Shown here piece after piece: positions 8,512 through 57,106 of a stretch of DNA of 64,000 nucleotides. Numbering within the stretch: position 1 is the stretch's first letter; each line of letters starts with the position of its first letter. The DNA comes from Clostridiales bacterium (GTDB taxonomy: Bacteria; Bacillota; Clostridia; Christensenellales; CAG-314), in assembly GCA_022508345.1 (NCBI GenBank), contig JAFLVK010000002.1, positions 325,649 through 389,648 on the forward strand. Reading direction: 5' to 3'. The notes beneath the pieces are model-generated. The model ran no database searches. It was not told where the DNA came from and was given only the letters and a program-made list of their open reading frames with translations. Made by a program: the position numbers and the translations under genes.

Positions 8512-8540
8512 TTGACAATATCACAAATATAACATATAAT
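8512..8540 (+). promoter_or_regulatory. Consensus sigma-A promoter of the TIR-FtsK-like gene
   Basis: TTGACA (8512-8517), 17-bp spacer, TATAAT (8535-8540), 51 bp before ATG at 8592. Confidence 0.8.
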
Positions 8541-8591: not shown

Positions 8592-10049
8592 ATGCAAGAG
8601 ATTTTTATTTCCTATTCCAGCAAGGATCAACAATGCGCAGATGAAATCGTGGCTTATCTTGAAGAGCGCGGTTTTAGCTGTTTTATCGCGCACAGAGATA
8701 TAAAAGCAGGCGAATCGTACGATATGCGCCTCATTGATGCAATTGACCGTGCAAAGCTGCTAGTTTTGGTTTTTTCCGACAATTCGGATATGTCCAAGCA
8801 TGTAAAGTCGGAAATTGCCATGGCATTTGACAACGAAACCACCATCATTCCGTACAAAATCACCGGCAGCAAGCCCACACAGCTGAAGTATTACCTTCAA
8901 ACAGCGCACTGGCTGGACGCTACTGCTCCCACAACAAACCACCTGGAAGATTTGTGCAGCCGAATAGCTGAAATTATCCAACCGTCTGACAACAAGCAAA
9001 AAGTAGTAATGGCTGTATCTCAACTACTCACTGAGCAAGGCTTCCAGTTCGAAATCGCAGACGTAATAGATGCGCCATGCTACACCACGGTTACGGTTCA
9101 ATTGACCAACACGCAAATACATCAAGGCATACTACAACGCAAACTGATGATGTTGGAAAGAGATGCCCGTTACAAGTTAAATACTCCTGCACGTGTGTAT
9201 CGCGAAAATAACGGTATACTCGGCGATTTAGTTTATAAATATGTATTTGAAATTACACATGACAAAACTGTCAGTTTTGATATGCAACAAGCGCTAGCCA
9301 AAACGCCCGAGTTAAAGGATATGCAACTGCCCATTGTCGTAGGAATGGATTACGACGGAAGCGTTGTATGCAAAGATTTACACGACACCGCTACTGTTTC
9401 CGTTTGTGGAGGCGAAGGGTCGGGGAAACGAAACTTTATTTACAACATGATACACAGTATCATATCCGTACGCTCTCCGCAGGAAGTAAATTTTGCCATA
9501 TTCGGCGACAAAACGTGTTACCAATTCCTGGAAAATTCGCCATATTTAGCTTTTGAAATAAAGCCAAGCGAATATAGCATATTTGAAAAAATCGAACAAA
9601 TAGCTGTACGCAGACTTGCCAAAACGCAACAAAAACCGATTGACGCATATAACGCAAACGCCACAGAAAAAATACCTCACCTTGTGGTTATATGTGAAGA
9701 TGCGGAATTGAATTACGATATACTAAGAAGATTCTTCGACAACACAACAAACAAAATTTTGTGGCAAGCAAGCGGAATTCATATTGTTGTAAATAGCGAA
9801 CACAGAAACAGCTTGTCACCTTATACGTTTGACACAACAATATATCACGCTATTCCAAGCGAAAATTATATGTCTCACAATGCCTACATATTGAGCTATG
9901 CTACGGGAGATATAATTTACGAAGATGGTGATGGCAGAATACAGCGTAGACTATTGTCGCCGTACGTCAGTGAGCAGTACATGCAAGAAGTTTCTGCGCA
10001 AAAGCAAAATCTAGCGCGGTCAAGCCACAAAGACACCTTTGACGAATAA
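8592..10049 (+). CDS. TIR-domain protein fused to a degenerate FtsK/SpoIIIE-like motor domain
   Basis: N-term MQEIFISYSSKDQQCADEIVAYLEERGFSCFIAHRDIKAGESYD...SKHVKSEIAMA...HWLDA is a TIR_2-type domain. C-term LPIVVGMDYDGSVVCKDLHDTATVSVCGGEGSGKRNFIYNMIHSIISVRSPQEVNFAIFGDK...PHLVVICEDAEL...QASGIHIVV...ATGDIIYEDGDGRIQRRLLSPYVSEQYMQEV follows FtsK/SpoIIIE order. Internal start chosen because the promoter lies inside the longer ORF. Confidence 0.85.
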   Translation: MQEIFISYSSKDQQCADEIVAYLEERGFSCFIAHRDIKAGESYDMRLIDAIDRAKLLVLVFSDNSDMSKHVKSEIAMAFDNETTIIPYKITGSKPTQLKYYLQTAHWLDATAPTTNHLEDLCSRIAEIIQPSDNKQKVVMAVSQLLTEQGFQFEIADVIDAPCYTTVTVQLTNTQIHQGILQRKLMMLERDARYKLNTPARVYRENNGILGDLVYKYVFEITHDKTVSFDMQQALAKTPELKDMQLPIVVGMDYDGSVVCKDLHDTATVSVCGGEGSGKRNFIYNMIHSIISVRSPQEVNFAIFGDKTCYQFLENSPYLAFEIKPSEYSIFEKIEQIAVRRLAKTQQKPIDAYNANATEKIPHLVVICEDAELNYDILRRFFDNTTNKILWQASGIHIVVNSEHRNSLSPYTFDTTIYHAIPSENYMSHNAYILSYATGDIIYEDGDGRIQRRLLSPYVSEQYMQEVSAQKQNLARSSHKDTFDE

Positions 10050-10066
10050 ACATATAAGCAAAGCAC

Positions 10067-10095: not shown

Positions 10096-10106
10096 CACAA
10101 TTTAAT

Positions 10107-10465
10107 GTAAGAGTTCAGTCTGTAAGCCGAGTTCTGTATTGGACGGTTATCTGTCTAGCACTGCCGTTACCGACAGCGTCAAGCGAATATGTCGAGATGC
10201 CGAGCAGGCATTTGATCTCATTTCTTGCACCGAGTGGGGTTTACATGCACACGATGTCACCAGCGTGTGTGTAGGCTCTTACCCTGCATTTCCACCCTTA
10301 CAGTGCAGTCTTACGACATGACACTGCGGTATATTTCTGTTGCACTTTCCTTAAAGTCGCCTTCACAGGCCGTTAGCCTGCACTCTTGCTCTGTGGTGCT
10401 CGGACTTTCCTCGTGGCCTAGCCAAACTTGGCTACCATCCACGCAACCGTCTGGCTGTCTCTTAC
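10107..10465 (-). ncRNA. rnpB: RNase P RNA (bacterial class A)
   Basis: Minus strand contains GAGGAAAGTCCGAGCACCACAGAGCA, AACAGAAATATACCGC, GGGTGGAAATGCAGGGTAAGAGCCTACAC, AAACCCCACTCGGTGCAAG, CGGCTTACAGACTGAAC. Ends GTAAGAG/CTCTTAC pair (P1). Confidence 0.95.
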
Positions 10466-51300: not shown

Positions 51301-51415
51301 ATCAATATTGTATCACAAATATAAGAAAAAAACAACCAAAGCATTTATATCTATGTTTGACAATATGTTATAATTATGCTATAATAAATACACAAAGATA
51401 CAGGAGGGAAATACA

Positions 51416-56784: not shown

Positions 56785-57106
56785 CGTTATCCACCAATTT
56801 AGTAGTGAACAGATTATACAGCATTGCAGACAGTTTGTCAAGCGTACTTTTGCAAGTAACAAAAGTAATTACGCATCCGAAAATAAGCGCAACGAACAGA
56901 AACGCGCGACACTCCCCATTGTTGAGTTCAAGGTTAACCTTCCAAATGACGTACGTTGCTACTGCGCCTAGTATCGAGTCGAATATGATTGCCGCAATTT
57001 TCGGCTTGGTCAACCCCACGCCGAATATGTATATGGCGGAAAACCCCGCCCCAAGCACGAAAAAAACGGCAAAAACGCACAGCTGCTCTATCCCTTTACC
57101 AAGCAT
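56534..57106 (-). CDS. yabQ: Spore protein YabQ (C-terminal tail overlaps divIC out of frame)
   Basis: N-term multi-TM YabQ-like, next to yabP; last ~83 residues lie in the divIC reading region. Confidence 0.7.
   Translation of the reverse strand: MLGKGIEQLCVFAVFFVLGAGFSAIYIFGVGLTKPKIAAIIFDSILGAVATYVIWKVNLELNNGECRAFLFVALIFGCVITFVTCKSTLDKLSAMLYNLFTTKLVDNDGTHILQEVNSSNIRSGDTDTGIASLHATGNADADVVTKRSRKRNGRTHSRSAQRRNQTARAPRIHANKRLRKKMGRSSRTHQ

Follow-up and report, generated by a model that had tools for sequence, protein, structure and literature searches.

Bacterial TIR domains are mostly effectors of biological conflict. In SpbK, the TIR NADase is activated by clustering on the phage portal (PMC12847820). 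Host division proteins can also enter immune recognition, as in CapRel-Ebc, which is triggered only by T7 Gp0.4 complexed with FtsZ (PMC13423816). In addition, ternary conflict systems have been reported to contain inactive FtsK and MinD domains and, rarely, FtsZ domains, and a decoy role has been proposed for the inactive enzyme domains of these systems (PMC7159879). In the open-access literature, we found no paper using the terms TIR-FtsK or TIR-FtsZ. Here, we analysed a stretch of 64,000 nucleotides from a gut bacterium of the Clostridiales (the window), in which a single gene joins a TIR domain to a degenerate FtsK. The features of the locus are as follows.

8512 to 8540, forward strand: sigma-70-type promoter, TTGACA-17-TATAAT, a 12/12 match to the consensus, conserved in the sister species
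8592 to 10049, forward strand: TIR-FtsK fusion gene, an ORF of 485 aa; the ortholog in the sister species (G008) starts at the same point
8592 to 8945, forward strand: TIR domain, residues 1-118 (Pfam TIR_2, E = 4.7e-21)
8811 to 8813, forward strand: putative catalytic Glu74, kept in relatives and aligned to the Glu of 6wt6
8997 to 9296, forward strand: degenerate FtsK alpha-domain region, residues 136-235 (chromosomal-FtsK HMM; PADLOC SspH at residues 141-319)
9309 to 9998, forward strand: degenerate FtsK beta (RecA-like motor) domain, approximately residues 240-469 (Pfam FtsK_SpoIIIE, 3.4e-10; hhalign 98.15)
9408 to 9431, forward strand: altered Walker A, GGEGSGKR, with Arg in place of Ser/Thr; Lys-Arg is also found in the G008 ortholog
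9684 to 9701, forward strand: altered Walker B, VVICED; the G008 ortholog keeps Asp-Glu
10047 to 10065, forward strand: stop codon and junction where the gamma-like segment of the ortholog (~80 aa) is absent; homology to G008 resumes at 10065

The first-pass annotation, made from the letters and the reading frames, had described the gene as a TIR domain fused to a degenerate FtsK/SpoIIIE fold, and profile searches bear this out. Residues 4-119 match TIR_2 and residues 240-312 match FtsK_SpoIIIE, both over the curated Pfam cut-offs. An HMM built from the chromosomal FtsKs of the order matches the alpha and beta part (E = 1.4e-11), and the PADLOC SspH model, the C-terminal end of which is FtsK-like, covers the stretch listed above. 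When the C-terminal half was compared with chromosomal FtsK by hhalign (a 2-row against a 6-row profile), the match over ~300 columns had a probability of 98.15 and an E-value of 6.5e-14, spanning the beta domain and, via the G008 ortholog, the gamma domain. The annotation had allowed that the C-terminal half might turn out not to be RecA/FtsK-like; the sequence profiles confirm the FtsK relationship. AlphaFold2 run on the window protein alone gave a mean pLDDT of 39 and no usable structure model.

The motor signatures of the window protein are altered throughout. The Walker A pattern GxxGxGK[ST] is replaced by GGEGSGKR, exactly where the annotation had placed it and with the Ser/Thr-to-Arg change it had named. 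Its reading of Walker B as Glu-Asp is also correct, the position being 9684-9701 and not 9681-9707; Asp-Glu is present in three relatives (G008, G052 and G284). The sensor ATQRP has become VNSEH. As had been predicted, there is no TM segment or N-terminal membrane domain in the window protein (maximum 19-residue hydropathy of 0.88, versus 2.94 for the resident FtsK), and the gamma winged helix is absent from this copy. At the other end of the protein, Glu74 is conserved across the aligned relatives, its match to 6wt6 being one of alignment only. The window TIR is a predicted NADase effector, which would act by cleaving NAD+.

An ortholog was found in one further genome, that of the sister species G008, and 2 of the 25 genus genomes carry the gene. 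Both copies lie at the same site, flanked by ecfA1 on one side and the RNase P RNA gene on the other. In the window, the neighbours are an EcfA-type ATPase gene, named by reading the sequence, and rnpB, such that the TIR-FtsK gene stands alone among housekeeping genes, outside any recognised defence island. The perfect promoter is located 51 bp upstream of the gene, and a nearly identical promoter precedes the ortholog, with the surrounding DNA less conserved. The G008 protein is 607 aa long and has a Lys-Arg Walker A and an Asp-Glu Walker B, followed by a gamma-like winged helix that falls under the Pfam cut-off and is supported by hhalign. In the window copy, a stop replaces this gamma segment and the flanking homology resumes 16 bp on. 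Because the ortholog retains its gamma-like C terminus and homology returns right after the stop, gamma was probably lost in the window lineage. The absence of gamma that had been noted from the sequence therefore holds for the window copy and is a local feature.

Several other aspects of this site were recorded. The rnpB gene (10106-10462, reverse strand; bacterial RNase P RNA class A, 242 bits) lies a short distance beyond the TIR-FtsK stop codon, in opposite orientation. Wherever the ecfA1-rnpB junction was readable in other species, it held either a short empty gap or unrelated genes. In sister species the gap carries other single genes, making it a variable cargo site; for example, a protein of 417-433 aa with an N-terminal hydrophobic stretch is encoded there at L044:3412-4713 and L046:3001-4254, and a 347-aa protein at L051:3012-4055. 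The window also has three more perfect TTGACA-17-TATAAT promoters, at 2659-2687, 51357-51385 and 56813-56841, where 0.03 would be expected in shuffles.

The two orthologs differ in a highly uneven manner. Between the window and G008, dN is 0.031 for the TIR domain, 0.078 for ecfA1, 0.33 for the alpha region and 0.63 for the beta domain; the TIR dS is similar to or above that of ecfA1, and the synonymous sites of the beta half are saturated. The TIR domain is under strong purifying selection and is more constrained than the neighbouring transporter ATPase. Since this constraint exceeds that of ecfA1 and the promoter is conserved in the sister species, the window gene is a live gene. The possibility raised by the annotation that this copy is a lone pseudogene falls on the same grounds, the ortholog having the same Lys-Arg Walker A. 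The comparison thus presents a constant effector (TIR) and a fast-changing sensor (the FtsK half), in which ~40% of the C-terminal residues, including the Lys-Arg Walker A, are still common to the two proteins. Third-position identity at identical residues is 0.56 for TIR, 0.56 for alpha, 0.57 for ecfA1 and 0.39 for beta, with saturation at 0.40 (Fisher p 0.015). This is only suggestive of a wholesale swap of the beta half between species, because in a region that aligns poorly, matches by chance bias the result in the same direction.

A search for further TIR-FtsK proteins, as the annotation had proposed, gave four more genomes in the order (G008, G033, G052 and G284). The total of 5 in 396 order genomes is a lower bound, with few candidates scored in each of the genomes sampled (41 from the family, 396 from the order, 388 from the class and 398 from the phylum). 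The assemblies are drafts, most of them probably from metagenomes; two genomes confirm the architecture of the window protein, and one genome each the G033, G052 and G284 proteins. Outside the order, no TIR-FtsK protein was found among the 398 phylum genomes or among the TIR matches of the 388 class genomes. A search of genome and viral contigs with the window protein returned no related loci, and tblastn gave one weak partial match in plasmids and one in phages.

The relatives differ in how much of the motor they keep. At one end of the series is the 955-aa protein of G284, from a third family, in which the order of domains is TIR_2, Tubulin, FtsZ_C, FtsK_alpha, FtsK_SpoIIIE and FtsK_gamma (Pfam E-values of 4e-26 for Tubulin, 6e-16 for FtsZ_C, 2.8e-54 for the motor, which is intact, and 2.6e-22 for gamma). 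Its FtsZ part has both the GTPase and the C-terminal domain, in which the tubulin signature reads GGGMGSG instead of GGGTGTG, and is ~33% identical to the resident FtsZ. The G052 protein (585 aa, another family) has TIR_2, FtsK_alpha and FtsK_SpoIIIE over the Pfam cut-off and a weaker gamma match under it; Walker A and B are kept and the sensor glutamine is lost. In G008, both the Walker A Ser/Thr and the sensor are lost, and in the window protein Walker A, Walker B and the sensor are all changed. At the far end of the series, the G033 protein (617 aa, same family, other genus) has TIR_2, FtsK_SpoIIIE and FtsK_gamma all over the Pfam cut-offs, and its ATP site is erased (Walker A GGDSARD, Walker B VING) with gamma kept. 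Overall, four of the five proteins have a gamma or gamma-like end, over the Pfam cut-off in G033 and G284 and under it in G052 and G008. The dead motor seen in the first-pass annotation is therefore real in the window copy and not constant in the class: the Walker residues are altered or lost in the window, G008 and G033, and kept in G052 and G284.

The distribution of these proteins does not go back to one event. Among 58 TIR domains placed in a tree, those of the window pair, G033 and G052 belong to separate starred clades, where their neighbours are TIR proteins with no recognised FtsK. Forcing the five fusion TIRs into one clade lowers lnL by 131 (p-AU 8e-62), thus rejecting a single ancestral TIR-FtsK gene; forcing the TIRs of the window, G008 and G033 together costs 76 log-likelihood units, and a grouping of G033 with G284 is weakly rejected (p 0.02). 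Since the TIR domains do not form one clade, the TIR-FtsK fusion arose repeatedly in the order. A TIR family of ~370-390 aa is also widespread in the order (L070-L074, L078-L080), with a C-terminal part that by eye resembles a GNAT-type acetyltransferase.

The origin of the FtsK half is clear in one case. In G284, the FtsK part shares 68% identity with the FtsK of the same genome (a 1165-aa frame), and in the FtsK tree the two form a clade with the FtsKs of two sister species (98/99 support), which identifies the G284 part as a captured resident motor. In the same tree, the branches leading to the FtsK halves of the window, G008, G033 and G052 are too long for placement. Several soluble FtsK copies lacking a TIR also group with the FtsKs of their own genus, including a Sel1-FtsK with two gammas and short FtsKs whose Walker A is in some cases broken. 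It follows that members of the order copy their resident FtsK repeatedly and that the TIR is one of several partners. The Sel1-FtsK proteins (L203:1054-3285 and L204:1210-3417; G350, and G805 by eye) have a Sel1 repeat in front of FtsK alpha-beta and two gammas, and are sister in each case to that species' resident FtsK; they are locally captured, soluble and TIR-less. The short soluble paralogs (L205:111-1658 and L208:1316-2962; G809 and G397) are ~510-550 aa long and have damaged Walker A motifs (GNADGDNS and GATGTDKS), but resemble FtsK in all other respects, gamma among them. In genus g80, apparently coiled-coil proteins are fused to a gamma-less FtsK motor (L209, L210, L211 and L212).

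We consider it an even call whether the window gene is a one-gene, NAD+-depleting alarm for abortive infection or division crisis, in which a captured FtsK serves as an integrated decoy and gates the TIR. At rest, the TIR domains would be held apart by the FtsK-like half. A phage protein attacking FtsK or the divisome, or an FtsK or divisome assembly disturbed by infection, would engage the bait, and this engagement would bring several copies together such that the TIR domains could assemble. The assembled TIRs would then cleave NAD+ in a Glu74-dependent manner and the cell would stop. The ATPase, and in the window copy gamma, could decay while the TIR is kept, because a bait need only be recognised. 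The annotation's suggestion of an immune effector encoded by one gene, with the motor half serving as sensor, is plausible. Somewhat more tentatively, the proteins may represent an undescribed class of one-gene immune receptors, in which TIRs repeatedly capture the cell's own FtsK, or FtsK and FtsZ, as bait; enzymatic decay, diversification of the bait surface and a route from divisome attack by phage to NAD+ depletion are part of this reading.

An integrated decoy best fits the features taken together: an effector that stays constant, a division-protein copy that changes fast, fusion on repeated occasions, loss of motor chemistry and the case with both FtsK and FtsZ. The annotation had instead proposed a pseudo-motor turned DNA- or oligomerisation-sensing scaffold. 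That proposal is still a live rival, but imitation of the division apparatus is indicated by the one relative that pairs a recent copy of the resident FtsK with an FtsZ domain. Several observations speak against a decoy. The fast evolution of the beta domain could reflect relaxed constraint instead of conflict between bait and pathogen. The gene sits alone without a recognised defence island, and the fusion is rare. The intact motor and gamma of G284 suggest a possible role for DNA engagement. In addition, capture alone does not imply immunity, because the TIR-less soluble FtsKs were also locally captured.

The main rival, which we regard as unlikely, is that FtsK rings loaded on foreign or replicating DNA cluster the TIR, with gamma reading the sequence and no bait needed, similar to the FtsK capture in DndH. 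Such a sensor would be consistent with the gamma or gamma-like C termini of four of the five proteins, the intact G284 motor, the kept Walker A and B of G052 and the capture of HerA/FtsK motors by Dnd-type defence systems (PMC10853773). It is disfavoured by the window and G033 copies: the Walker site is lost or altered in three of the five proteins, and the window copy is gamma-less, yet its TIR and promoter are under selection. The fused FtsZ and a bait copied from the resident motor would also be left unexplained. A more doubtful explanation is that FtsK, a hexamer, and FtsZ, a filament, are only self-assembling folds that cluster the TIR after an unrelated signal, for example a nucleotide or a phage structural protein. 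The need of TIR activity for clustering (PMC12847820), the assembly-forming nature of both folds and the loss of catalysis are compatible with a generic scaffold. However, it was the resident FtsK, not just any available one, that gave rise to the G284 copy, FtsZ and FtsK serve one cellular process, and the very fast divergence of the window beta domain is unexpected for a conserved assembly surface.

A housekeeping role, as a division- or segregation-linked checkpoint or a programmed-death switch (e.g., after failed chromosome segregation), is improbable, since a checkpoint would be expected in most genomes and the gene is patchy (2/25 in the genus, 5/396 in the order). The parts do come from division proteins, and the consensus promoter conserved in the sister species suggests steady expression, but bacterial TIRs serve mostly in conflict, which weighs against a non-immune function. 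We give very little credence to a decaying relic, in which the TIR alone still matters while the motor half decays to nothing, or the whole gene is in the course of being lost. The beta dN, the saturated synonymous sites and the lost gamma would suit a relic; the frame is nevertheless open, the promoter conserved, the TIR dN under that of ecfA1, and the shared C-terminal residues, with the Lys-Arg Walker A among them, have persisted.

If the integrated-decoy reading is true, bacteria would wire decoys of their own division machinery directly to TIR effectors, in direct parallel to plant NLRs with integrated decoys. It would also make effector-triggered immunity in bacteria open to a simple genetic test and offer a route to discovering phage proteins that attack FtsK. 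The series from an intact capture (G284) to an eroded pseudo-motor (G033 and the window) provides ready-made natural stages, and, with the FtsZ-Gp0.4 trigger recently reported (PMC13423816), the idea that division proteins can be immune bait is both timely and testable.

Among known systems, chromosomal FtsK/SpoIIIE has the same order of alpha, beta and, in relatives, gamma; the window copy has a TIR in place of the membrane domain, and altered Walker motifs. Thoeris was rejected, as no ThsA was recognised by eye among the neighbours at 4-16 kb and the ThsB model matches are partial. In the DndH and Orc/Cdc6-linked HerA/FtsK capture systems (PMC10853773) and in PADLOC SspH, as in the G284 protein, an FtsK motor has been captured, including cellular FtsK with its alpha domain, and the SspH models match the FtsK part here. 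Those systems are multi-gene and combine the ATPase with an endonuclease effector, whereas here a TIR is encoded in one gene with an often dead motor; at the window locus there is no DndH-type nuclease effector or partner gene, the effector being the TIR and the neighbours the EcfA-type ATPase and rnpB. The MoxR-vWA (VMAP) ternary systems (PMC7159879) also contain inactive homologs of division proteins (FtsK, MinD/ParA and rarely FtsZ) in conflict proteins, for which a decoy role was proposed, but are multi-gene and chaperone-based, in contrast to the direct TIR fusion in a single gene. Membership in these systems was rejected, with no MoxR AAA+, vWA or VMAP/iSTAND gene recognised by eye in the neighbouring ORFs. 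SpbK (PMC12847820) shares with the window gene the form of a single-gene TIR protein, there an NADase of defence activated by clustering on its trigger, but it reads a phage portal protein and has no described FtsK or FtsZ part. CapRel-Ebc (PMC13423816) is alike in that a host division protein attacked by phage is involved in the immune trigger. In that system, FtsZ is a host protein distinct from the immune one, a toxin-antitoxin fusion, whereas here FtsK, and once FtsZ, has been copied into the predicted immune protein itself and the effector is a TIR.
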